From positions 1 to 49,345 of IMG/VR virus record IMGVR_UViG_3300006750_000014: a stretch of DNA of 49,345 nucleotides; one strand, given 5' to 3'. The stretch comes from a virus. A program made the position numbers and the translations under genes. Positions 16,306 through 49,345 of the stretch are shown in pieces (positions within the stretch are counted from its first letter, which is position 1; each line of letters starts with the position of its first letter). The notes under the pieces are model-generated. The model saw only the letters and a list, made by a program, of their open reading frames with translations, was not told the origin of the DNA and did no database searches.

Positions 16306-19300
16306 TTAAAGAGTAGGGTCATTACCACCAGCCATTTCCTTTATCTTCTCAGACAATTGACTCATGACATTCTTCAGAATTGTTGGAGTGGCTTCGGCTA
16401 TTAACTGAGCACCATTAAGAAGTACCTCAATCGGCTGTACCTTTGTTTCAAACTGAACTGTTAGTCCATTCATATTTTCTAGTTTCTCGGCAGCTTTTGC
16501 TAATGCTCCTACGTGTTGACCAAAAGTATTTTGTGCTGCCGCAAAGGTCTCTACAGTAGGCTTAATAGAATCTACCTGAGAGGTTGTTCCTCCGTCAGGC
16601 AAACGAGTGCCAAATCCTGAGTTTCCAGTCTTTGTCTCTTGCTTACGACCAAGCCTCTCTCTTAGAGCATTAAACTCTGAGTCTTCTCTAAGGTTTGTAT
16701 TTTTATCTGTATTCAACTGTTGGAATACACGATTTCTCTCTTCTCCTCTAAAGCTTCGGATAAAAGCTTTTTGGCTAGATGCGTGCTGACCGCTAACAGT
16801 ATCTAAGACACTCTTAGAGGTGGCATCCAAGCCTCCTTTGGCTCCTAGCCCTCTACCAACTATTCTTCTTGCCACCGTATTATTCTCAAAGGTTGGCTGG
16901 ATTCCTCCTAGTCTTGAAGGCTCAAGCTGCTGCTTGCGAAATACTGAGAAGTCTTTAGCTTGAGCAGCCTGCCCTCTAACAGAGCTTAGACCGCCAAATC
17001 TCTCTCTTGCTGCTGCCTGTTGCTCGGCACGAGCATCTCTTCTTCCTTGCATAACTTTTTCATGCCTATCTCTTCTGGCTTCCTTTAAACGCTCAAACGG
17101 AGTAAGAGCTAATCTTCTCTCTTTATTGAATTTGTCAGCCCTGGCACGCTCGACTTCAGCGTCCGACTTCGGCTTCTTTAAAATACGGTTTTGTGGAGTA
17201 GGAGATAATCCTCCAAGTGCAGCGGGACTAGAAGGGGTTGCTGTCGAAGGCTTAGCCGAAGGTTTATTAAGAACTGCCGCCCTACGTTTTTCTAGATCGG
17301 CTGCCCTTCTATCTCTATCAACTTGTGCTGGATCAGGACCAGCAGGCTTGATTTTTTTTGCGGCCTCTAGAGCGGCTTCTTTCGCTTTCGATTCTGCCTC
17401 TTCTGCAAGCTTTTCATACTCTTGAATCCCTTTGATATAAGCGGCCTCAGCAGCTTTAACGGCCTTGGCAGCGGCTTCAGCAACTTTAACTGCCCTTCTC
17501 TTTGCACCTGTATCTTTTCGACCTTTACCAATTCCGGCGACCTTTTTATCGGCTTTAGCTTTGGCAGCTCTAGCCTCTTTTAGTTCAGCAGCAGCCTTGG
17601 CAGCGGCTTTAGCTTTGGCGGCTTTAGCTACTTTTAGTTCAGCAGCAGCCTTGGCAGCAGGCCCAGAACCAGCTCCAGAGCCTCCTCTCTCATTAGGAGT
17701 CCCTCTACCGCCTCCCACGTCTTGCAAAACCAGATCTCGCAAACCGTCCAGACCCTGTAATAGTGCCTCCTGCTCATTAGGAGTCCCTCTATATGGACGA
17801 TTCAGAGCCGCCAAGGGGCCAGAGCCCGAGGGCGAAGTGCCAGCGGTTTGTCGAGAGTTATCCAAGGTTTGTTGCAAGGCAGCTCCGAGATTTGTTGAGA
17901 GGGGAGGAGCAGGAGCGGCAGTACTTCCTACTCCAGAATGCGAAGTTCGGTATGGTCCGAACACATCGTCTGTATTAGTAATATTACCTTGACCATCGAG
18001 GATCGGCTTCACAGGCTTAATGCCAGCGGCTTGTCGAGCAGCAGATATATCTCTAGCATTGGCAGCTATTGCGGCAGGGGTGATTTTGCTTGGGTCTGTT
18101 CTGTGAGTTGTTGGGCGGGTTGGTTTAGCTGGTGCAGTATCATCAGCGGTTATAGCATCAACTCGTGATTTAAACTCAATAGTAGCAGCGTCCCTTAGCT
18201 CCTCAAAGGCAAGAGAAGCTTGTAGTATTTTAATAGCTGTTAGCTCCAGCTCTGTGCGGAACTTCTCCTGCTGACTTATGATTTGTTTAGAGTTAGCATT
18301 AACTACTCTTGTAATAACCTCCTCTTGTGCTACACGAAGTCTCTCCCCCTCAGTAAGAAGACCTTTTTCGTCGTTAGTGGTGCCCTTTGCGGTCCCGCCA
18401 ACACCAAACAAGCGACCTCCTAGCAGATCTCCTTTGGGGCGAGTGCCTCCGAGTCCATCAAATAACTTTGCAAACCCTCCCCCAATAGCCTTGGTAGCAT
18501 TCGCTAATACCTGCTCAAGCTCTGCCTCATTTAGTTGGAAAGCATCTTTAACTTGACCAGGATCAGCTAGGATAGCTGACGCTTCCTCAAATTTTAATGG
18601 TTGGTTTCTTGATGCTTTTTCGGCTGCAAGAGTCGGCTTTAAAAAATCAAAGAAAGCCTTTCTTCTATCTTCTGGATTTTTAGCACTACCAACCTTTGAA
18701 GCAAATAGCTGAGCACGCTGACGTTGATTCAGACGACTCTCTTGGATTTTAGCTAATTCGCTTTCTATTGCTCCTAGTCGGACTACATCAGTACTTAATG
18801 TATCTAGAGCCTTATTAGTGCCCTCAAGAGCCTTAGCGTTTTCACCAAGTCTCTTGACTAATTCTGTCTGCCTATCAAGACCCTTTGTGCTTAATGCATC
18901 TGGAGAATCTTGCAGTGCTTTTAGCTCATTCTGTGTGTTTGTACGGCTTGCTTCAAGACTAGAACGACGGCCCAGCAATGATCGAGAATCAAGGACATTA
19001 AAGCCTGCCCCCGCTCCCGCTAGTCCTCCAGCAGCACCTCCGGCATTTACTTGTGCTTCAAGAGTTTTTCTTAGTTTGCTTTCAGCATTAGCACGCACAT
19101 CGACAGAACGATTAATAAACTTATTGAAGCGTTCTTCAAAAGCTTGACGATTCTTTACGATAGTTTCTTCTGCCTGAGCACGATTGCGAAAAATTTCTAA
19201 CTGGAAATTAGCAGAAGATAAAACAGAATCATTAAACTGATTCAAGCTATTAGTTATAGACTCTGATCCAGCACGTAGCTTCTCTCCAAAGTCAGTGATA

Positions 19301-22300
19301 GCTGACTGTAGCTCTTTTCCTCCTCCGCTCGCCAAGGTCTTCCGAAGCTGTTCTATACCAAGTCCAGCGTCATCGCTTCCCTTCTGACGACCAGCAAAGA
19401 CATTTCTAAGACTAGCATCAATATCCTTTTTAACGCCTTCTGGTAATCCTGCAAAATCGGCTCCTGCAAACCTTTCAAAAGTCTTGGTTATATCGGTTAG
19501 ACTAATATCAGCCGTGCCAGAGGTTCCTGCATTTCGAGCTGCCAAATCATCAACAGTTCTCTTGAGAGTAAATGGTAGGTCTCGGGCAAATGTTAGGAGT
19601 GGCTTCAATCCATCGAAAGCGGCTCCTCCTCCTCCTCCAGCCACTACATTCTGTATGCGATTTATAGCACCCCCTATCTCAACGTTACTACGTCCAGCAA
19701 GATCAGTAAGAGGATTGACCCTCTTTTGAGGAGTTATAGTCTGGTCGGCTCCACCTATGCGTTTAATTTCTGATTCTATATTTCCCGACACTACCACTAA
19801 ATCAGAGACAGCACTTGCTACTCGACGAGAAAGCTGATCTATTGCTTGGCCGAAGGCATCAAATCCTTGAACCATCTTAGCAAGCTGCTTCGCAATCTTC
19901 TCAGCTTGGAATTGAGCTGCTATTAGCTCAACATTGCCGTTTTTTACGGCGTCTATATATCTATCTGTTGTAGCAACCATATCTAAGATATTTTGCTGAG
20001 AAGAAGAACCTAACGCCTCATTGAATGCCTTGGCTTGATCAGGATCAAGATTACGAATAGATTTAGTAATGCTTTCTATGCTTGAGGTATCAATGCCAAA
20101 ACCTGCAAAGCTTGTGTTCTTTCTGGACAATATATCGTTTGCTTGTGCTATAAAGTTTTGCTTAAAGGCTTCAACCCCATCTCCAACTGACCCACCCCTG
20201 TCTAATGATTTTCTAAAGGCGTCGTCCGAAGTTTGCAGAATAGTTTCAAAAAGCTCACCATCATCGTTATTTCCTTTTTTGATCTTCGCTATATCAGTAG
20301 ATAGTCTCTTAGCTGCCGCCATGCGATTAGAGGAGTTAAGTGTCTTGAATAATCTTTGCATACTCCCAGTGAAAGCATCTGTTGAACCCGTAACATCATC
20401 AGCACTTGCTAATGCTGACTGAAGCTCAGAAATATTGAGATCGGAAAGGTCTGGCAAAGACTCTAGTTCTTCTAAAGAAAATCCTGCTGCAATATTTTCA
20501 GTAAAAGCCTTAAACTGCTCCTGGGCTTTCTTAAGATCTTCATCATTAATCAAATTTAGAGATTGACCAATTGCTGCTCCTCTTTTTTGAGCTGCAACCT
20601 GCCTGCCTCTACTATCTTTCCTGTCTTGTGCTGCCTTAGAAAAGAGACTGAGACTAACATCTCCTACAGCCTTTATCTTATTAATAATTCCAGTCTCAGC
20701 AGATAAGCCAGTTCCTATGTCTATTATGCCCTGAAGCCCAATCCCTAATCCCTTAATACTAGGGAAAAGTAGCCCCGGCACTGAATTAAAAGCATTGGCT
20801 GCTTGCTGAGTCAAGCTTTCCATCCCCGCCAAAGTATCAGTTGTTCTTAGAACTTGCTTAGAAAGGCTTTCGGTAGCCTTAGCAAAATCGTCAATCTTTT
20901 CGACATTTTTAAAATCTGAGCCTAGTCTCTCTAGACTATCGCCAAATTTATCAGAAGCAACAGCCAAGGCATCAAGAGACTCGAATTTCACTTGCTCTTG
21001 AGCAGCCTTAAGGAGACCAATAGTAGCACCAGCCACTCCTCCAACAGCCGCACCAACAGCCGCACCAACGGGACCAGCTACAACCATACCAAGACCCGCA
21101 CCAAGAGCGGCTCCTTGAAGCCCTCCTTTTATACCGCCAAACACCTTAGCACTTTTTGCACCACCCGGCCCACGAAAACCTTTCGCTCCACCTACTTCTG
21201 TTCTACCAAATCCCTTACCAACAGCATCAGCAATAGGACCAATAGCAAGAGCTGCGATAGCACCGATAATCCCTGGCTTTAGAACCTTCCCTAAAGTAGA
21301 AGCAATGACTTTTATTCCCCCAGGAGGCAATAGTCCCTTGCCATTGGGTGGCAAAGGGGGTCTCGTAGCTAAGCCTACAAGACTTGACTTGCCAAATAGC
21401 CTAGTACTTCTACCAACAGGAGGCAAACCCCCTCCAGCAGCTAGTCTAGGTCTAATTCCTGCTCTATGGCGTTTTCTGCGTGCAGCAAGCCTTTCTCTAA
21501 CAGAGGCTACCCTGTCTTCTCTTGATCTTGTAAGATTATCTGCACGACGCTTTGCTCCCGCTCCTCTTCTTGCCGCTTCCCGGCCATCTGGGGTGTCCTT
21601 AAAAGCTTGGCCTGTTCTGGCTATCGCACGGTCGTTGGCCTGTCTCTGCTTGGAGATCTCTATCTCCTTTTGTCGTTCAATTATCAGTTGGTTTTCGGCA
21701 GTAGTCTTTTCTTTAAGCAGTTTTAATTCGAGTGCGTTTGCCTGCTGTATTTGAGCCTCTAGAGCCTTATTGCTTCTCGCTTGTCCAGCTTTTGAGTGAC
21801 CTATCGGAAAGAACGTTCTTTGCGATTCTAACACCGCAGTTTTATTAGAAGCAGCGGCCTGTCTCTTGGCTGCTGCCTTAGCCTTAGCCTTTGCCGCTCT
21901 CACTACACCTGCCTGCTCTGTTGCTTCTTTCTTTAGGGCTGCTCCTCCTCTTCTAGCTCCAGCAAAAGCTTGAGCTTCTGGAGATGCACCTAAACCAGCA
22001 GAGCCATCTTTCCCCGTTATTAGGCTTGACTTTTTAGCCATTGTATCAACACTGATGGCCGCTGCTTGAGCAGCAGCACTTAATTTCCCCATCGAGAAAG
22101 CACCGCTTCCCATTTGTGAACCAAGCAAAGAAATAGCAATAGCTGCACCACCAATACCATTAACAAAGCCTTCGAATGAGCTAAAGTCTAATCCTTGCAG
22201 TACGCTTAATGCTAAAGTTGCTCCAGTGATAACTTGGATTGCCCCACCATAGCCTACTCCTCCTCCTCCAGCAAATTTTGCACGGCCTGTACTGCTTGAT

Positions 22301-25300
22301 CTACCTACTGATCCACCTCTATTTGCGAATAGTCGAGGAGCTTCTTCAAAAACCCCAGAGTCAATAGCAGCAAGAGAATCTCCACGATTGATAATATATG
22401 AGCCTACAGGAAGATCTGCTTTAACTGTGTCCCGCGTACCAATACCAGGAACTTGAGATATATTAGCAGGATCAACATTAGCTAAGTTAGAAGCATCTCC
22501 ACCAGCATTAGTTTTATCTAGAGCCTTTTTGCCTCCTGCTTGAGCGACACCTTTACTGTTGACAGCAAACTCTCCCGGCGTCACTAAAGAGGGTATAGTA
22601 GGCACAACTGGCTGAGTACCGCCTCGATTCAGATCTAAACGAATCCCTTGCTTTTTCAAGAAGGCTCCTACTTGCTTTCCGCTAGTAGTGGAAGTTACTT
22701 TCATGCCAGCAGCATCAGCAGAGGTTAGAATTCTTGATGCGGAATCTGTCCCTCCCACCTTGCCCTGAAGAGGGGTGGAGTCATTAAGCCTTTTGCGTAA
22801 AAGGGCTTTTCCTTTTGCACCTCCAAAACCCCCAAGCTTAGAAAGAGCTGCTCCCTTAAGAGGAATAGCAGGAGGAAGGTCTCTAACTAGTTGGTTTACT
22901 GCCTTCTTTCTTAAATTGTCAGGCCCCGCAGAACGTTGGCTTAGCTTGGCGTCAATAAAGCTAATTCCTTTTAAGCCATCGAAGTTGTCCGCAAGCTTAG
23001 GGACAAGTCCTGTCTCAAAATCAAAAGGACGATTAATATCGGGCTTATTATTAAATTTGCCTCCTGTCTGAAAGGCTTCTAACACAGATTCAAACAAGCT
23101 GCCTTTTACTCCGCGATTAATACTGTCAAAGAAATCCTGGGGGGCCTTGCCAGGAACGGTTGGGACAGGCAAACCAAAGTCTTTAGCCAGAAGACTACTA
23201 GTTCCTTTAACAGCCTCAGTAATTCCTTTTTCTAAGGAGCTATCAAATGTCTTGGCAGTGTTCTCATTTAAAGCGGAGCGTTGGAGAGTAAGCGGTTTCC
23301 CTCCCTTGATAGCCGAAGTATTTCTTGATCCTTTCCCCAGAGCTTGAGAAGCCTTCTGAACTTCAGCAGGAGTTATGACATTTAGAGGCGGCGTAGCGAT
23401 ACCTTGAGGTCCATCTAAAATAGCGGCACCAATTTTAGTTTGTGTTTTACTAGCCAGACCACCAGCCGCAAACTTCTGACGAGAAGATCCCCCCATACCA
23501 AACTTTGGACGAGCAGATCCTCCGCTTCCTAGCTTGGCTACTGTAGGTTTACGGCCTCGGCCTAGAGGAGTAGCTGTAGTTACTGCCACTCCTTTCATAG
23601 CTGCAATCAAAATAGGTATGCGAGCACTCAAGGTCTGTAGTACGGTAACGGTCTTAGAAGAAATAGAGCCTAAAGTCCCCATTCCTTTATTTAAAGCAAT
23701 AAGCTGGACAGTATTCTTTTGTATCTCTGCTGTATTAGCTGTTACAGCCGCCTTAGTAGCCTCTGCCTTAGCCTTTGATGCAGCACCACTAGCACCACCA
23801 GCTCCTCCTCCAATAACACTTTTTCCACCGCCCTTCCCGCCTTTGCCAATTCCTCCAATAAATCCACTAGCAAAACCAAAAGCAGCACCCGATAATTTCA
23901 GAGCAGCGAAGGTAGTAAGAAGAGGGATAGCTGGACGCAAAGCGTCGGCTAAAGTAATAAAAGCATTAGCAGCAGTGAGAGCAAACTTCGCTAAATTTTG
24001 GAATGTATCAGAACCAGCAATATCACGTATCAACTTGCCAAATCGTTGACGCAATGCATCAAGCTGCACAGAAAGAGTTTGTTGGGCTAGAACAACATCT
24101 TTAGTAATGCTTGCCGTTCCCGCCAAGGCTACTTTACGAGCCTTCTCAGCCTTTTCAAACTCAACGATAGCTGGGATCAAGTTCTTTAGCTGACGAATAC
24201 CGCCTAACTCTTCAACAATAGCACCAAACGTTACAGTATCGCCTCTCTTTTGTAAAGCACTTAGCTTATTAGATAATTCTTTGAATGAATTAAAAAAGCC
24301 AATGAACTGCCCTTCAGCATTAACCAGCTCAACATTAAACTGCTTCAAGAACTCAATCGTCTGAGGACGTTGAATACGAGCAAAGATAGTTCTTAGGCCA
24401 GTACCGATAGAGTCGGCACTTTCGCGAGTAGTAGAACGAACAGCAGTAAAGATTGAGATCAGCTCATTCAGTGCTTCTTGTGGCTTTTGGAACTCAGGAG
24501 TAGACGCAGCAAACACACCACCAGCACGACGGATCACAGAGATTAAGTCTTCCGACTCAACAGCGAACTTCTTAGATACTGCATTTAAAGAGCCAAGTAC
24601 CTGCTCGGTCTTATCAGCAGAGATATTAAACTGGTTTAAAGCAGCAATAACACCTTCAGTAGTTTGCTGTAGACTACCAAAAGTAGGAGCTAGTGATGCT
24701 CGTGCTACAGCACGTAGAGATGCACGCACCTGATCTAATGACTGGCCTGTTTGGGCAAAGGTACGAGCGACATCAAGTAACTCGTTAGCGTTCACACCAA
24801 GAGTTGTAGATAGGTTATCAATTGTGTTGGTAAGCCCCTGTAGGTCTTTACCTGCCTTGCCTGTAACCTGAGTAATCTTAATCAGCTCACGTTGAAAACT
24901 AATGGCTTGAGAAATACCTTGTTGTACAGCACGAACAAAACCAAAGATGGCTCCTGTCGCAATAGTAAAAGCTGCAAATCGACGAATAGCCAAAGCAGCA
25001 TCTTTACCGAAGGCTTCAATCTGAGAGCCGGTTTTTTTAGCAGCCGCTCCTGCCTTAGCAATACCCTTAGTGGCACCGGCTGTAGCGTTGCCTAATCTGG
25101 TAGTAGAACCTGCCATTCCAGCCATAGAATTCTTTGCTGTAGTAGCACTAGCCGTCAAACGCTTAAGATTTGCTTCTACAGAAGTAAGAGCAGCATTAAA
25201 GGCTTTAAGCTGACCAGCGGCCCCTTTAGTTATACTTATTTTTACTGGCACGTTAATGCCACGCAAGCCCTTGGAGATGGCTTTGCGAACTGTACCTATA

Positions 25301-25347
25301 TTCTTAGGTCCACTTAGAACGACTTTTGCATTAATATTGAATGCCAT
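16306..25347 (-). CDS. Tail tape measure protein (3,013 residues)
   Basis: Its length and place between the chaperone-like genes and the tail-tip genes identify it. Residues about 130-420 match the TP901-type tape-measure core: FQRELIKITQVTGKAGKDL, then GVNANELLDVARTFAQTGQ, then SADSIGTGLRTIFARIQRP. Hydrophobic glycine/alanine stretches near residues 1360-1380 and 1420-1450 could insert in membranes during DNA entry. Residues about 2560-2650 are an alanine-lysine-glutamate-rich helix (AAAKAAAELKEARAAKAKA), preceded by a short G-T-P-N-E repeat. At about 0.15 nm per residue this length predicts a tail near 450 nm. I saw no peptidase or muramidase motif, though such a domain could be missed. A terminator-like hairpin lies just upstream of its start. 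Confidence 0.93.
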   Translation of the reverse strand: MAFNINAKVVLSGPKNIGTVRKAISKGLRGINVPVKISITKGAAGQLKAFNAALTSVEANLKRLTASATTAKNSMAGMAGSTTRLGNATAGATKGIAKAGAAAKKTGSQIEAFGKDAALAIRRFAAFTIATGAIFGFVRAVQQGISQAISFQRELIKITQVTGKAGKDLQGLTNTIDNLSTTLGVNANELLDVARTFAQTGQSLDQVRASLRAVARASLAPTFGSLQQTTEGVIAALNQFNISADKTEQVLGSLNAVSKKFAVESEDLISVIRRAGGVFAASTPEFQKPQEALNELISIFTAVRSTTRESADSIGTGLRTIFARIQRPQTIEFLKQFNVELVNAEGQFIGFFNSFKELSNKLSALQKRGDTVTFGAIVEELGGIRQLKNLIPAIVEFEKAEKARKVALAGTASITKDVVLAQQTLSVQLDALRQRFGKLIRDIAGSDTFQNLAKFALTAANAFITLADALRPAIPLLTTFAALKLSGAAFGFASGFIGGIGKGGKGGGKSVIGGGAGGASGAASKAKAEATKAAVTANTAEIQKNTVQLIALNKGMGTLGSISSKTVTVLQTLSARIPILIAAMKGVAVTTATPLGRGRKPTVAKLGSGGSARPKFGMGGSSRQKFAAGGLASKTQTKIGAAILDGPQGIATPPLNVITPAEVQKASQALGKGSRNTSAIKGGKPLTLQRSALNENTAKTFDSSLEKGITEAVKGTSSLLAKDFGLPVPTVPGKAPQDFFDSINRGVKGSLFESVLEAFQTGGKFNNKPDINRPFDFETGLVPKLADNFDGLKGISFIDAKLSQRSAGPDNLRKKAVNQLVRDLPPAIPLKGAALSKLGGFGGAKGKALLRKRLNDSTPLQGKVGGTDSASRILTSADAAGMKVTSTTSGKQVGAFLKKQGIRLDLNRGGTQPVVPTIPSLVTPGEFAVNSKGVAQAGGKKALDKTNAGGDASNLANVDPANISQVPGIGTRDTVKADLPVGSYIINRGDSLAAIDSGVFEEAPRLFANRGGSVGRSSSTGRAKFAGGGGVGYGGAIQVITGATLALSVLQGLDFSSFEGFVNGIGGAAIAISLLGSQMGSGAFSMGKLSAAAQAAAISVDTMAKKSSLITGKDGSAGLGASPEAQAFAGARRGGAALKKEATEQAGVVRAAKAKAKAAAKRQAAASNKTAVLESQRTFFPIGHSKAGQARSNKALEAQIQQANALELKLLKEKTTAENQLIIERQKEIEISKQRQANDRAIARTGQAFKDTPDGREAARRGAGAKRRADNLTRSREDRVASVRERLAARRKRHRAGIRPRLAAGGGLPPVGRSTRLFGKSSLVGLATRPPLPPNGKGLLPPGGIKVIASTLGKVLKPGIIGAIAALAIGPIADAVGKGFGRTEVGGAKGFRGPGGAKSAKVFGGIKGGLQGAALGAGLGMVVAGPVGAAVGAAVGGVAGATIGLLKAAQEQVKFESLDALAVASDKFGDSLERLGSDFKNVEKIDDFAKATESLSKQVLRTTDTLAGMESLTQQAANAFNSVPGLLFPSIKGLGIGLQGIIDIGTGLSAETGIINKIKAVGDVSLSLFSKAAQDRKDSRGRQVAAQKRGAAIGQSLNLINDEDLKKAQEQFKAFTENIAAGFSLEELESLPDLSDLNISELQSALASADDVTGSTDAFTGSMQRLFKTLNSSNRMAAAKRLSTDIAKIKKGNNDDGELFETILQTSDDAFRKSLDRGGSVGDGVEAFKQNFIAQANDILSRKNTSFAGFGIDTSSIESITKSIRNLDPDQAKAFNEALGSSSQQNILDMVATTDRYIDAVKNGNVELIAAQFQAEKIAKQLAKMVQGFDAFGQAIDQLSRRVASAVSDLVVVSGNIESEIKRIGGADQTITPQKRVNPLTDLAGRSNVEIGGAINRIQNVVAGGGGGAAFDGLKPLLTFARDLPFTLKRTVDDLAARNAGTSGTADISLTDITKTFERFAGADFAGLPEGVKKDIDASLRNVFAGRQKGSDDAGLGIEQLRKTLASGGGKELQSAITDFGEKLRAGSESITNSLNQFNDSVLSSANFQLEIFRNRAQAEETIVKNRQAFEERFNKFINRSVDVRANAESKLRKTLEAQVNAGGAAGGLAGAGAGFNVLDSRSLLGRRSSLEASRTNTQNELKALQDSPDALSTKGLDRQTELVKRLGENAKALEGTNKALDTLSTDVVRLGAIESELAKIQESRLNQRQRAQLFASKVGSAKNPEDRRKAFFDFLKPTLAAEKASRNQPLKFEEASAILADPGQVKDAFQLNEAELEQVLANATKAIGGGFAKLFDGLGGTRPKGDLLGGRLFGVGGTAKGTTNDEKGLLTEGERLRVAQEEVITRVVNANSKQIISQQEKFRTELELTAIKILQASLAFEELRDAATIEFKSRVDAITADDTAPAKPTRPTTHRTDPSKITPAAIAANARDISAARQAAGIKPVKPILDGQGNITNTDDVFGPYRTSHSGVGSTAAPAPPLSTNLGAALQQTLDNSRQTAGTSPSGSGPLAALNRPYRGTPNEQEALLQGLDGLRDLVLQDVGGGRGTPNERGGSGAGSGPAAKAAAELKVAKAAKAKAAAKAAAELKEARAAKAKADKKVAGIGKGRKDTGAKRRAVKVAEAAAKAVKAAEAAYIKGIQEYEKLAEEAESKAKEAALEAAKKIKPAGPDPAQVDRDRRAADLEKRRAAVLNKPSAKPSTATPSSPAALGGLSPTPQNRILKKPKSDAEVERARADKFNKERRLALTPFERLKEARRDRHEKVMQGRRDARAEQQAAARERFGGLSSVRGQAAQAKDFSVFRKQQLEPSRLGGIQPTFENNTVARRIVGRGLGAKGGLDATSKSVLDTVSGQHASSQKAFIRSFRGEERNRVFQQLNTDKNTNLREDSEFNALRERLGRKQETKTGNSGFGTRLPDGGTTSQVDSIKPTVETFAAAQNTFGQHVGALAKAAEKLENMNGLTVQFETKVQPIEVLLNGAQLIAEATPTILKNVMSQLSEKIKEMAGGNDPTL

Positions 25348-42817: not shown

Positions 42818-43930
42818 CTATTCAAGTTCCTGTAAATACAATTGTTGTTTATCACTCAATAATAATATAGTCCATAAAAGTATCCTTTGGCCCAGCTCTC
42901 CACTGATATACTGATCCATGAAAGACTTCCCTCTCTCGGAAATCGCCAACTGTTCTTCAGGATCGTTTTTCAACCATTCAAAAACCTCTGGAATCTGATC
43001 TATATTGATCTCAACACAGTCCTTGCCAAAGTCCAATAGTGGGTAATACCACTCCATGAATTTGAAATCAGGGTTCCGAATCTTAATTGGTACGCTGTTA
43101 GAGCCAAGCTGCCACGGCAAGCGTGCCCAAGCACAAACATGCCCGTCAATACATAGCTGGAACTTATACTGGAGCTGCTCACGCAACTCTATCCTCTTCT
43201 CTCGAAAATAGACCTCATCCCCATCGGCTAGGCTAGGGAAGTGCTCACAAACCTCCTTATAGACCTTATTAAACTTCTCTTCACCATAATCCTTTGGAGG
43301 AATAACACGAGCGAAGATAGGACATTCTGAACCCTTAGAATATTCCGCAATCTGAAGACGCTGGTTCGATGCCATGCCCTTACCGTTCCAATATATATTA
43401 GTGAGGGAACCAACGAAACACAACTCATCCTTCTTATGAAGTAGAGGAGTGTCATACATTGCCACATGCTCCATTTCGGCATAACCCACTAAATTGTTCA
43501 CAGAGGGGACCAATATATTGTTGGAGCTTTGTTCCTTTGAGAAGGTTAGTGAGGGGATTCTCTGTCTAGGGGCGGTAGACATATCAGAAAAAGAAAAGGG
43601 AATAATAAGATCAAGGTCTTCCATGATCTCTGGAAATCTCTTGTGAAGAGTGTCCATCATAGAGGCGATGGCCTTACATCTCACATTGACTAGCTTGCTG
43701 CTTTCGAAAGAGTCGAAATTCTTTAGATTGGCCATTTTCCCCTGTTGAAACCGCACCAAAATATCGTTTGTGCCAAACTTATAATTTTCCTCTATGTCAT
43801 GGGCCGAGTAACCTTTAAAACTAGATACTTGGCTTCGACACAGAGCATCAATCTCTTCCGGTATCTCTAATATCTTCCGCTTCTCTTCAAGCGGCATATG
43901 CCTAGTCATTGTGAATATCTGGTTGTACAT
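42818..43930 (-). CDS. GT90-family (CAP10-domain) glycosyltransferase
   Basis: The protein has 370 residues. It carries the CAP10/POGLUT signature at residues about 250-310: REQLQYKFQLCIDGHVCAWA, then RLPWQLGSNSVPIKI, then EWYYPLLDFGKDCVEI, where the family has a K-Y-x-x-x-x-D-G-x, R-L-P-W and E-W-x-Y-P-L-x pattern. CFVGSLTN at 171-178 is the preceding conserved strand. These enzymes move glucose or xylose to proteins or to cell-surface glycans. The start at 43930 has GGAG ten bases upstream. It overlaps the small-terminase candidate by 29 bases and lies just upstream of GMD. Confidence 0.85.
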   Translation of the reverse strand: MYNQIFTMTRHMPLEEKRKILEIPEEIDALCRSQVSSFKGYSAHDIEENYKFGTNDILVRFQQGKMANLKNFDSFESSKLVNVRCKAIASMMDTLHKRFPEIMEDLDLIIPFSFSDMSTAPRQRIPSLTFSKEQSSNNILVPSVNNLVGYAEMEHVAMYDTPLLHKKDELCFVGSLTNIYWNGKGMASNQRLQIAEYSKGSECPIFARVIPPKDYGEEKFNKVYKEVCEHFPSLADGDEVYFREKRIELREQLQYKFQLCIDGHVCAWARLPWQLGSNSVPIKIRNPDFKFMEWYYPLLDFGKDCVEINIDQIPEVFEWLKNDPEEQLAISERGKSFMDQYISGELGQRILLWTILLLSDKQQLYLQELE

Positions 43931-44726
43931 CTTTTACAGTCTCCGTATTTAAAAGTGGTTGATCCACAAGCCCATCTTCAAATTCATGATATTCAGATAA
44001 TCGTTCACGGGCTTTGTTCGCCGCTACCCGATTAACCTCCATATCGAATCCTTGCTTGTCCTTTACTTCAAGATCATCTAGTTGACGCATCCAAATTAAA
44101 AAATTAGTATTAGCGTCTTCTGCGATTCTCTTACGTTGTTCACGAGTACCCTTAATGTCCTTTAAAAGCCGCTCTTGTTTTGTAAGAAGCTTCTCGTGCT
44201 CTGTGATGTAGGAGCTTTTGCTACCTATCATCGCCCCCAATTGAGTTTGAAACATTGCTAGTGCCTGTGTGTCCTGAAATTCGGGAGGTTTATCCATTTC
44301 CTCATTAATAAGCTTTTCAAGATCAGCAATGTTCGTTACAATGTCTTGGCGGTCTTCCATAGACCGATTAACCAGGATTGCAGTGCGGCACAACTCTACG
44401 ATCTGCATCTCTTCAGTAGCTACAACGTCTTCGTTGAATTGCTTGTAGAGGTCGATCCATTTGTGCTCAAAGAATACGATTTCGTTATCATTGAATTGCT
44501 TCCGCATCTCTTTGAAATAATAACGGTCCCGTAAAGTAGATAGAAGGTGCTCATCATCAGTTAAATCTCTGGCCTTGAGATTCTGCTTGTCGATATACTT
44601 CCTGATAGGGTGGATGGTCCTATTTAGATGGCGGGCCATTTCTTCTAGACTTAGATCGAAGCAGTTTTGTTCTATATAGCTCATCTCGGCCTTAGAGAGC
44701 TTTCCGCGTTTACGGGTCGATGCCAT
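43902..44726 (-). CDS. Candidate terminase small subunit (HTH plus coiled coil)
   Basis: The ATG at 44726 gives 274 residues; a GTG at 44732 would add two. Residues about 10-45 (GKLSKAEMSYIEQNCFDLS then EMARHLNRTIHPIRKYI) form a helix-turn-helix of the type found in small terminase subunits, which recognise the packaging site. The rest is long-helical (NIADLEKLINEEMDKPPEF, KLLTKQERLLKDIKGT), as for oligomer formation. It lies upstream of the packaging genes, but five unrelated genes separate it from the large subunit. It could also be a transcription regulator, since its N-terminal HTH resembles the protein at 45905-46171. Confidence 0.55.
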   Translation of the reverse strand: MASTRKRGKLSKAEMSYIEQNCFDLSLEEMARHLNRTIHPIRKYIDKQNLKARDLTDDEHLLSTLRDRYYFKEMRKQFNDNEIVFFEHKWIDLYKQFNEDVVATEEMQIVELCRTAILVNRSMEDRQDIVTNIADLEKLINEEMDKPPEFQDTQALAMFQTQLGAMIGSKSSYITEHEKLLTKQERLLKDIKGTREQRKRIAEDANTNFLIWMRQLDDLEVKDKQGFDMEVNRVAANKARERLSEYHEFEDGLVDQPLLNTETVKDVQPDIHND

Positions 44727-45303
44727 TTTCACTCAATATTAGTCGGATGTGGTTTAGTAAGGTCTCACGTTTAGCTTTGGGCAGTCTTAATTTATTAACA
44801 AATCTAAGCCAGTCTTCTCTCATGAAGATAGGAATAGCTTTGTCTATCATTGAATAAAGCTCATTCGAAAGAGCTGTATCCTCTACACTATGAGGCTGAC
44901 CCTGTAGCATGTCTTCTCCCTGCTTGGTAGACATGAGATTCTTTTTGAGTTCGTTCCTCGTCTCATGTCTGGCGTAAGGCTCACAGTTCATAAGGTTGTC
45001 ATGAAGCGTGCATTTGCGTTCTATGTACGCATCAAAGGGGCAGTGGTCGCAGGGAGTATCGGGCCGAGCATAATTATTACGTTTAAGATTATAGAGGCGA
45101 TTACGGACGTGGACCCAAAGAAAATTTTCTAAGGGACGCACGCCATCGTAATTCTCTATGCCCTGCCATGCGAAGAGAGCCGCTTCTTGCTTCATATCGT
45201 CGATTTCATAGTAACCGAACTTAAACGTTGAGGCCAGCTTATTCGATATTCTCTCGATTATCTGGAGGACTTGCTCCTCCGTGTACCCCTTCGGAATCTT
45301 CAT
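44710..45303 (-). CDS. Second sigma-like factor (region 2) with cysteine cluster
   Basis: The ATG at 45303 has GGAGG 12 bases upstream and gives 197 residues; an ATG at 45324 would add seven. Residues about 15-70 look like sigma region 2: EQVLQIIERISNKLASTFKF, then YEIDDMKQEAALFAWQGIEN, then ENFLWVHVRNRLYNLKR. A following cysteine/histidine cluster (DTPCDHCPFDAYIERKCTLH) may bind zinc and is not a sigma feature. No clear region 4 HTH is present. Phage late sigma factors such as T4 gp55 are also short and of this type, so a late-gene role is reasonable but inferred. It overlaps the next gene by 17 bases. Confidence 0.65.
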   Translation of the reverse strand: MKIPKGYTEEQVLQIIERISNKLASTFKFGYYEIDDMKQEAALFAWQGIENYDGVRPLENFLWVHVRNRLYNLKRNNYARPDTPCDHCPFDAYIERKCTLHDNLMNCEPYARHETRNELKKNLMSTKQGEDMLQGQPHSVEDTALSNELYSMIDKAIPIFMREDWLRFVNKLRLPKAKRETLLNHIRLILSENGIDP

Positions 45304-45490
45304 ATACTTTCTCAGCCTCCACATTATCTAGTTCAAACTCGATGCCTTCACTAAACGTAAGAGTAGCCAAGGTAAGATAAGGTTCCATGACGATATTACA
45401 AGAGATAATTCCCTCTACAGGCTTACCTGTTTCTTTGTCGATAACTTTGGTATTTTCATCGTTACCATCATAAACTATCTTAAGCTTCAT
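45239..45490 (-). CDS. Small acidic protein, unknown function
   Basis: The ATG at 45490 with AAAGGA 11 bases upstream gives 83 residues, MKLKIVYDGNDENTKVID onward. An ATG at 45520 with AAGGA close by would add ten. The chain begins with strands and ends with an acidic tail (EAEKVYEDSEGVHGG). It overlaps both neighbours in the order coiled-coil protein, this gene, sigma-like gene. No family recognised. Confidence 0.6.
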   Translation of the reverse strand: MKLKIVYDGNDENTKVIDKETGKPVEGIISCNIVMEPYLTLATLTFSEGIEFELDNVEAEKVYEDSEGVHGGASPPDNRENIE

Positions 45491-45812: not shown

Positions 45813-45827
45813 AAATTTTGTCTCCAT

Positions 45828-45904
45828 GTTATGCGAAAAGTTGTCAACTCAACTATAATAGTATATACGTCACACCAGCAACTTTTTCTAGGAGACAGAG
45901 GAAA
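45828..45904. promoter_or_regulatory. Divergent control region with inverted repeat
   Basis: This 77-base gap separates the leftward block from the rightward control genes. It contains AGTTGTCAACT (45839-45849), a palindrome with a central T. An outer inverted pair, GAAAAGTTG near 45836-45844 and CAACTTTTTC near 45880-45889, frames an AT-rich core with TATAAT at 45854. No clean -35 box at 16-18 bases was found for either direction, so the promoters may depend on a phage factor. The palindromes could be operator sites for the adjacent HTH protein. Confidence 0.5.
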
Positions 45905-46171
45905 ATGAATATCAAATGGTCAGATGCAGAGAAAAACTTCATTCGTGAGAACGCTCATAAACTAAAAGATAGTGAGATTGCGGCTGATCTTACAGCTAGT
46001 AGTGGACGGATGGTTACCTTGCAGAGTGTTAGGAAAATGAGACAGAAATTAGGGATTAAAAAGAAGTCAGGAAGAGGCGTTTGCGGTGTAGTTAACGTCG
46101 GAGGAAACAGTACCGACCATGACTCCGTTTCAGCACCAGAGAATCACATCTATCAGCTTATCAATTCGTAA
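45905..46171 (+). CDS. Small HTH DNA-binding protein
   Basis: The ATG at 45905 follows GGAGACAGAGGAAA, giving 88 residues; upstream frame is not supported. Residues 5-55 (WSDAEKNFIRENAHKLKDSE then IAADL, and VRKMRQKLGIKKKSGRG) form a helix-turn-helix with a basic recognition helix, of the kind found in small phage regulators. The same A-E-x3-I-x2-N-x6-E-[IM]-A pattern begins the candidate small terminase at 43902-44726. It faces the leftward block across the inverted-repeat gap, so it may act as a regulator there. Confidence 0.7.
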   Translation: MNIKWSDAEKNFIRENAHKLKDSEIAADLTASSGRMVTLQSVRKMRQKLGIKKKSGRGVCGVVNVGGNSTDHDSVSAPENHIYQLINS

Positions 46172-48147: not shown

Positions 48148-48819
48148 GTACCCCCCAAAAGATATTGACGTAACCCGTTGGTATCAAAGGACTTACGACG
48201 AAAACCGCCCGGTCGTCGCCCTAACTCCTTTCATAGTAACGACTTACGACGATTTTTTGTGGGGGGTGCTATCCCACCCGCATTCTATTTGCCCCCCTCT
48301 AATGGGGCTAAGCATAGAAATATAATTTATTCGGCCATATAGCGATTCTGTTCATACCCCTCTAATGGGGTCTTGCACAAAAATAAAATAAATTCCACAA
48401 GCCTCCTACCCTACTATTAGCTTAATCGTACCCCCCAAAAGATATTGACGTAACCTGTTGGTATCAAAGGACTTAGGGCCAAAACCGCCCGTTCGTCGCC
48501 GTAAACCCTTACTATCAAAGGACTTACGACGATTTCTTATGAGGGGTATTGTGCCCCCCGCATTCTATTTCACCCCCTCCAATGGGGTCACGCACAGAAA
48601 TAAAATTTATTCGGCCATATCGCGATTCTATTCTACCCCCTCTAATGGGGTCACGCACAGAAATAAAATTTATTCCATGAGCCTCCTACCACACTATTGA
48701 CTTAATCGTACCCCCCAAAAGATATTGACGTAACCTGTTGGTATCAAAGGACTTAGGGCCAAAACCGCCCGTTCGTCGCCGTAAACCCTTACTATCAAAG
48801 GACTTACGACGATTTCTTA
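48148..48819. repeat. 280-bp tandem repeat array (two full units and one partial)
   Basis: Units begin at 48148, 48428 and 48708 with GTACCCCCCAAAAGATATTG, so the period is exactly 280 bases. The third unit is cut after 112 bases, where CGCAAAT sequence takes over. Units 2 and 3 are identical over these 112 bases, while unit 1 has diverged. Each unit carries GGTATCAAAGGACTTA-type elements, some in inverted pairs (48177-48200 with 48214-48240). Each full unit also has two CCCCTCTAATGGGG hairpins 63 bases apart (48293, 48356, 48573, 48636), each followed by an AT-rich segment. No credible gene lies in it. Confidence 0.85.
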
Positions 48820-48836
48820 CGCAAATCCCGTGCCAA
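48820..48836 (+). repeat. Conserved upstream block, copy 2
   Basis: CGCAAATCCCGTGCCAA follows the truncated third repeat unit and precedes the promoter at 48877 by 57 bases (start to start). Sixteen of 17 bases match the copy at 46507. Confidence 0.6.
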
Positions 48837-48876
48837 AAGTATTTTGAGTTTATTTCGATATTTAACGATGTTCCGC

Positions 48877-48904
48877 TTGACAGATTGCCGATACTCTCTA
48901 TAAT
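48877..48904 (+). promoter_or_regulatory. Sigma-70-type promoter for 48947 gene
   Basis: TTGACA at 48877-48882 and TATAAT at 48899-48904 with a 16-base spacer. The spacer shares TTGCCGATAC-like sequence with the promoter at 46586, so the two appear related by duplication. Confidence 0.87.
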
Positions 48905-48946
48905 GGAAGCATGTTCACAACGTTTCTTTCTTCTGGAGTTTCTGCC

Positions 48947-49189
48947 ATGACTAGCCGCCAAGACCCCCGCGAAGCCTTCCCCGTTGACATCGCCGCAGAG
49001 TTCGAGGATTGGTGCGACCGCATCGACCCCCCTACGGTGGAGTGCGAAGCCCCCTTCGCATGGACGGAGGACGACATCGACTGGCACGAGGGGATGCGTT
49101 CCGACAACCTCTATGAGGACATCACCGATGGGGATGGTTGGGATTGTAACGACTTCAATTGCCAAGAGTTCGAAGATGGCTATTATTAG
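48947..49189 (+). CDS. Small very acidic protein, unknown function
   Basis: The ATG at 48947 has TGGAG eight bases upstream and gives 80 residues; an ATG at 48911 in the same frame is too close to the transcription start. The product is strongly acidic: MTSRQDPREAFPVDIAAEFE, then DWCDRIDPPT, then EDDIDWHEGM, ending in D/E-rich sequence. Its coding sequence is richer in G and C than other genes here. Acidic phage proteins of this size often mimic DNA, which is analogy only. Confidence 0.7.
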   Translation: MTSRQDPREAFPVDIAAEFEDWCDRIDPPTVECEAPFAWTEDDIDWHEGMRSDNLYEDITDGDGWDCNDFNCQEFEDGYY

Positions 49190-49208
49190 CCAAAAAAGGG
49201 GGTATTAT

Positions 49209-49345
49209 ACCCCCCACAAGAAATCGACGTAAACCCTTGGTATATAACGACTTACAGCGGCGGGCGGCGGCGGCTCGCCCTAAGTCCTTTCATACCAACG
49301 ACTTACGACGAAAAATTACGCAAATAGCGTGCCAAACAAAAAACT
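49209..49345. repeat. Diverged partial copy of the repeat unit and third conserved block
   Basis: ACCCCCCACAAGAAATCGACG at 49209 onward recalls the repeat start. GGTATATAACGACTTA (49239-49254) forms an inverted pair with TAAGTCCTTTCATACC (49281-49296) around a GC-rich loop. ACGACTTACGACGA follows, then the conserved block CGCAAATAGCGTGCCAA at 49319-49335. By analogy another promoter should lie just past the window end. Confidence 0.7.

Follow-up and report, generated by a model that had tools for sequence, protein, structure and literature searches.

The window (the whole stretch of viral DNA analysed) is a virus record, linear and 49,345 bp long, so its right end is simply where the contig stops. 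Near this end lies an array of small early genes that diverge from a late operon whose head encodes a sigma-70 region-2-like protein (F0, 44710..45324, - strand; PF04542, E 2.9e-4, below the curated cut-off, with a member of alignment A4 matching the same family at 1.1e-5). F0 is accompanied in nearly all late-operon heads by F1 (43902..44732, - strand), a conserved protein whose N-terminal helices were read as helix-turn-helix and are followed by a long coiled coil; a fold search with the F1 model returned no match at E <= 0.001, and weak small-terminase and coiled-coil hits. The array is adjoined by F18 (45818..46171, + strand), a small HTH-like protein with a basic tail; the 29 loci that carry it belong mostly to the window's clade. 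F25 (48911..49189, + strand), a small early ORF present in 8 array-bearing contigs, lies between the repeated elements designated D3 and D4 below. Elsewhere in the window, a single ORF of 3,013 aa spans 16306-25347 on the - strand.

The 280-bp tandem repeat reported in the preliminary description was recovered by TRF (period 280, 2.4 copies, span 48148-48819). Unit 1 (48148..48427, 280 bp) and unit 2 (48428..48707, 280 bp) match at 233 of 280 positions (83% identity) and differ at 47, and unit 3 (48708..48819) is truncated, its homology to unit 2 ending after 112 bp. Over these 112 bases, counted from the unit starts, units 2 and 3 are identical, as had been described, and the identity runs 7 further bases leftwards. 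The 47 differences between units 1 and 2 and the divergence of units 2 and 3 past their shared stretch argue against a plain assembly stutter. A diverged fourth copy (74% over 111 bp) was found at 49207-49317, outside the span first described. The first ~115 bp of each unit consists of two near-palindromic modules and a GC-rich linker; the inverted elements noted earlier in every unit are these modules, eight of which were counted within 48171-49305. The remaining 165 bp of units 1 and 2 is a spacer carrying CCCC-N6-GGGG hairpins at 48294-48307 (unit 1), 48357-48370, 48574-48587 and 48637-48650. These hairpins, of the form CCCCTNNAATGGGG and also pointed out earlier, occur four times against 0.14 expected in shuffles and are confined to the spacer; no other IMG/VR contig matched the pattern used, and they are so far private to this virus. 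The repeats had been described as holding no gene; the sole ORFs inside them are 70-80 aa long and start with GTG or TTG. The 280-bp tandem array is a local peculiarity, and the recurrent element is the doublet of modules, not the period.

Each module is a near-palindrome of ~35 bp, TAAgtCsTT-N7-AAsGacTTA (consensus of a 64-module alignment, nGnCGTAAGTCCTT-N7-AAGGACTTACGnCG), and a doublet is two modules with a GC-rich linker between them. The half-sites, 11 bp each around a 7-bp centre, are unequal (C-type and G-type); two G-type halves within one module are nearly absent (5 seen vs 35 expected), and the centre triplets show purine/pyrimidine alternation in 263 of 388 modules. Module-to-module spacing was 52-53 bp (five helical turns) in 141 of 211 close pairs and, in an independent set of 50 loci, in 68 of 74 doublets. 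Of the doublets, 5.6% fell within ATG ORFs of 100 aa or longer, vs 43.7% of random windows. They recur in the early-gene regions of large phages, among small genes that diverge from an F0-headed late operon, at a median interval of 1,271 bp (~1.3 kb).

Four doublets lie in the window: D1 (48171..48246, cores 48171-48195 and 48222-48246 plus linker, half-site polarity '<>'), D2 (48451..48526, cores 48451-48475 and 48502-48526, polarity '<='), D3 (48731..48806, cores 48731-48755 and 48782-48806, polarity '<=') and D4 (49230..49305, cores 49230-49254 and 49281-49305, polarity '>>'). The polarity of D1-D3 is atypical, and D4 alone among the window copies is typical.

The 27-base single-module pattern was matched in 85 viral-contig stretches in IMG/VR vs only 8 in bacterial or archaeal genomes, and a second module pattern in at least 120 viral stretches in IMG/VR. 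With a weight matrix, 554 modules were recognised across 127 loci, called as 194 doublets and 166 single modules, and zero modules in mononucleotide shuffles at the score threshold; as the loci were picked by module patterns, these module frequencies are selected, and the flank statistics are not selected for. Listed matches in larger virus records cluster, for example at 116-123 kb of a 126-kb record. A 157-kb relative encodes a DNA polymerase, a ribonucleotide reductase, a UvsX-like recombinase and a DnaB-like helicase. Among other gene content, the array genes of L136, L137, L139, L143, L144, L147 and L148 include DUF932, GP88 and L5 gp82-like families (the latter two named after phage proteins), and tmRNA genes occur in large array-bearing phages (L136, 74-341; L140, 19620-19947), with predicted tags AKTTSFALAA and AEPCLALAA. 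The preliminary description had proposed a BLASTN search of phage genomes; when the region was compared with 50,697 phages by distant BLASTN there was no match, and the consensus doublet matched annotated phages at E of 3 or worse only. Searches of the literature on repeated palindromic phage and viral elements and on planctomycete phages, with subscription journals mostly outside their coverage, found no such element described.

Distances from the doublet core to the -35 box of sigma70-type promoters, which were called by consensus only, peaked near 20, 31, 41, 52, 62 and 71 bp. At a period of 10.5 bp the Rayleigh test gave R 0.71 (p ~3e-14, n=62 contig-distance values) and, in the independent set, R 0.68 (p ~4e-6, n=27); these p-values assume independence, which kinship among genomes lowers. 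Of 67 oriented doublets, 51 have their promoter-side module pointing at the promoter and 2 have it pointing away, with 18 toward and 1 away in the independent set. For half of the doublets or more, the motif used recognised no promoter within 130 bp. Because dozens of uncultivated virus contigs carry the element, set at a fixed helical angle to their early promoters, the repeat looks like a local tandem copy of a gene-control site that lacks a name, rather than a chance repeat. The earlier placing of the array in a phage control region, with a link to a regulator, agrees with doublets that are intergenic, polar towards early promoters and helically phased to them.

Within the window, D3 is the sole copy followed by a complete sigma70-type promoter, a perfect TTGACA-N16-TATAAT at 48877..48904 (+ strand), 70 bp from the D3 core; its helical phase relative to D3 is that seen in the relatives, and the polarity of D3 points away from it. 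After D4 the contig ends within 40 bp, before any sigma70-type promoter could appear, and D1 and D2 are adjoined by neither a sigma70-type promoter nor a sigma54-like motif. With D1 and D2 lacking promoters and D3 reversed, the general case rests on the relatives, and the tandem copies may be partly inert. Perfect TTGACA-N16-18-TATAAT promoters stand at five sites in the window (46586, 46870, 47082, 47284 and 48877), each on the + strand. In array-bearing loci, the spacer of such promoters contains CGAT in 85% of those close to a module and in 57% of the others, usually at a nearly constant position within the spacer.

A second promoter-like motif adjoins some doublets on the opposing strand. 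Of 644 flanks, 36 have GG-N10-GC reading into a module at 14-15 bp, with 0-3 at other offsets, and the independent set holds 15 sigma54-like motifs at 14-16 bp. In the TTGGCAC-N5-TTGC context, 43 sites were found vs 2.8 expected by shuffle, 25 of them with a module within 25 bp downstream; at loci with F0, 9 of 10 sigma54-like motifs are on the late-gene strand. The window carries two such -24/-12 motifs, one at 48821..48836 (- strand; TTGGCAC-N5-TTGC, with GG-N10-GC) reading into D3 and one at 49320..49335 (- strand) reading into D4, each 14 bp from the core. In sequence the motif conforms to a sigma54-type promoter, and we infer that it may be a working one; to our knowledge, phage use of sigma54-type promoters would be unusual.

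On balance we lean towards reading the doublet as a paired, polar operator or upstream site for a regulator, probably DNA-bending, of early promoters. The two imperfect palindromes of 35 bp, set 52-53 bp apart on one helix face and each built of unequal 11-bp half-sites about a flexible 7-bp centre, would both be bound by a dimeric, probably DNA-bending protein of phage or host origin, and from its fixed helical face the bound protein would control the adjacent early sigma70-type promoter. Binding, regulation and the direction of its effect are what we infer from the sequence statistics. Since the opposing sigma54-like promoter would be expected to start at the doublet edge, transcription coming from the late direction could be blocked or gated by the same complex. 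In the window, tandem duplication has copied the unit without its genes. A tentative and rather doubtful extension would make each doublet a node of a regulatory class so far without a name, coupling an early sigma70-type promoter to an opposing late-direction sigma54-type promoter every ~1.3 kb across the early region, so that one protein would switch the whole of it from early to late transcription.

The many copies in short intergenic spaces, polar to transcription and present at about one per ~1.3 kb, would also suit a silencer or roadblock, in which a phage repressor, occupying many of the doublets between genes, halts elongation between early units in the manner of stoperators, a logic that matches L5-like repressors (PMC9283540). 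Such a roadblock needs no helical phasing to a downstream promoter, however; the one large relative surveyed has lytic-type replication genes, and among 99 array ORFs, drawn from six genomes, no regulator or repressor was recognised, so that we regard it as unlikely. F18 was considered as the binder of the doublets and set aside as a general one, because five array loci (L066, L090, L047, L144 and L139) carry the late-operon head with no F18 match.

The preliminary description had also raised a structured RNA, and a hairpin acting as terminator or insulator where transcripts end, or where sigma54-type transcripts begin, would fit doublets that lie between genes and upstream of the next promoter. 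Single strands fold at z about -2.1 and -2.4 vs shuffles, as any palindrome does, and in one Planctomycetota genome the first letters of several tRNA terminators resemble TAAGTC. In the 64-module alignment, however, standard pairs fill 75.6% of stem cells vs 79.8% in shuffles, and 500 of 500 shuffles were at least as high. The stems are systematically mismatched at three positions and lack compensatory covariation (observed values lie below all or nearly all shuffles); these pair counts, with stem positions that anti-covary, do not support a conserved RNA hairpin, and the modules are read as DNA because selection on an RNA stem would give the opposite of the observed pairing. The RNA covariance search that had been suggested matched no Rfam family at gathering or relaxed thresholds. 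A run of at least four Ts follows the doublet in just 34% of cases in the gene direction and 13% in the other, and an RNA element offers no explanation for the helical phasing. An RNA terminator or insulator is accordingly quite improbable.

Single modules also occur in Planctomycetota genomes, where they are commoner than in a control family. Of the bacterial MAGs with a module, three are Planctomycetota and the others are labelled Flavobacteriales, Thalassolituus, Acidobacteriota and Flavobacterium. A planctomycete host is hinted at. Several of the single modules follow closely after a tRNA 3' end, and single module-like sites lie within a few bases of the 3' ends of several different tRNAs in Planctomycetota genomes (L163, L164, L165, L166, L170, L185, L188, L159, L209, L213, L214, L217 and L221). 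The L213 and L214 loci have near-identical tRNA-Leu 3' regions, including the module and the sequence beyond it, with tRNA 5' parts that apparently differ, and could be the two ends of one integrated element. The paired-operator reading does not explain these single sites; given the similar start of several tRNA terminators in one such genome, the chromosomal sites may be terminators or attachment sites.

Site-specific recombination sites, attC-like or lox/dif-like and parting exchangeable early-gene cassettes, would account for the 11-bp unequal arms, the 7-bp centre that varies by copy and the small-gene arrays. Some single sites in chromosomes also neighbour tRNA 3' ends or an ORF that was read as encoding a tyrosine integrase (two of the tRNA-adjacent loci have such an ORF). 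Alignment breakpoints fell near doublets in 16.4% of cases vs 11.4% by chance, a slight excess that gives no clear signal of cassette exchange. Against recombination, no integrase was recognised in the 99 array ORFs, and recombination needs no helical phase to promoters; we consider it very doubtful. A replication, partition or packaging site, which the iteron-like, repeated and intergenic palindromes might suggest, is highly improbable, as many copies over several kb at ~1.3-kb intervals are polar to promoters, no feature was found in its support, and the spacing beside early transcription units fits promoters better.

A short DNA signature marks the early control region in many different large phages, uncultivated and for the most part unannotated, and could be used to locate this region and the regulator acting there. 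The promoter architecture predicted from it combines helical phasing, polarity and opposed sigma70-like and sigma54-like promoters.

Several known systems share parts of this layout. REP/REPIN elements and MITEs are short paired palindromes, intergenic and in many copies, and the doublets resemble them in all these respects, but differ in having copy-specific centres, a fixed promoter distance and polarity, and no transposase recognised among the array ORFs. Integron attC sites and tyrosine recombinase cores have unequal inverted arms about a short variable centre. The modules share this arm-centre-arm layout and the setting of tandem small genes, whereas the arrays have no recombinase among their ORFs and no clear cassette exchange, and the polarity of the doublets follows promoters. 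Class I activator sites and sigma54 enhancers (CRP, NtrC) are paired palindromic dimer sites upstream of promoters on one helix face. The doublet palindromes are likewise paired on one face; in contrast to sigma54 enhancers, the doublet sits at the expected start of the sigma54-like promoter and not upstream of it. We know of no activator for the doublet, and of no activator site with its sequence, half-site code or linker. The stoperators of cluster A mycobacteriophages occur in many copies at promoters and in short intergenic spaces, in an orientation correlated with transcription, and are single 13-bp asymmetric sites bound by a monomeric L5-type repressor (PMC9283540). The doublets are similar in lying in short intergenic spaces with an orientation that correlates with transcription. 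Their mode of action would bear some likeness to that of stoperators, but they are not stoperators, their sites being 35 bp and mostly paired, and they differ further in comprising two near-palindromes at five-turn spacing, joined by a GC-rich linker and helically phased to promoters.
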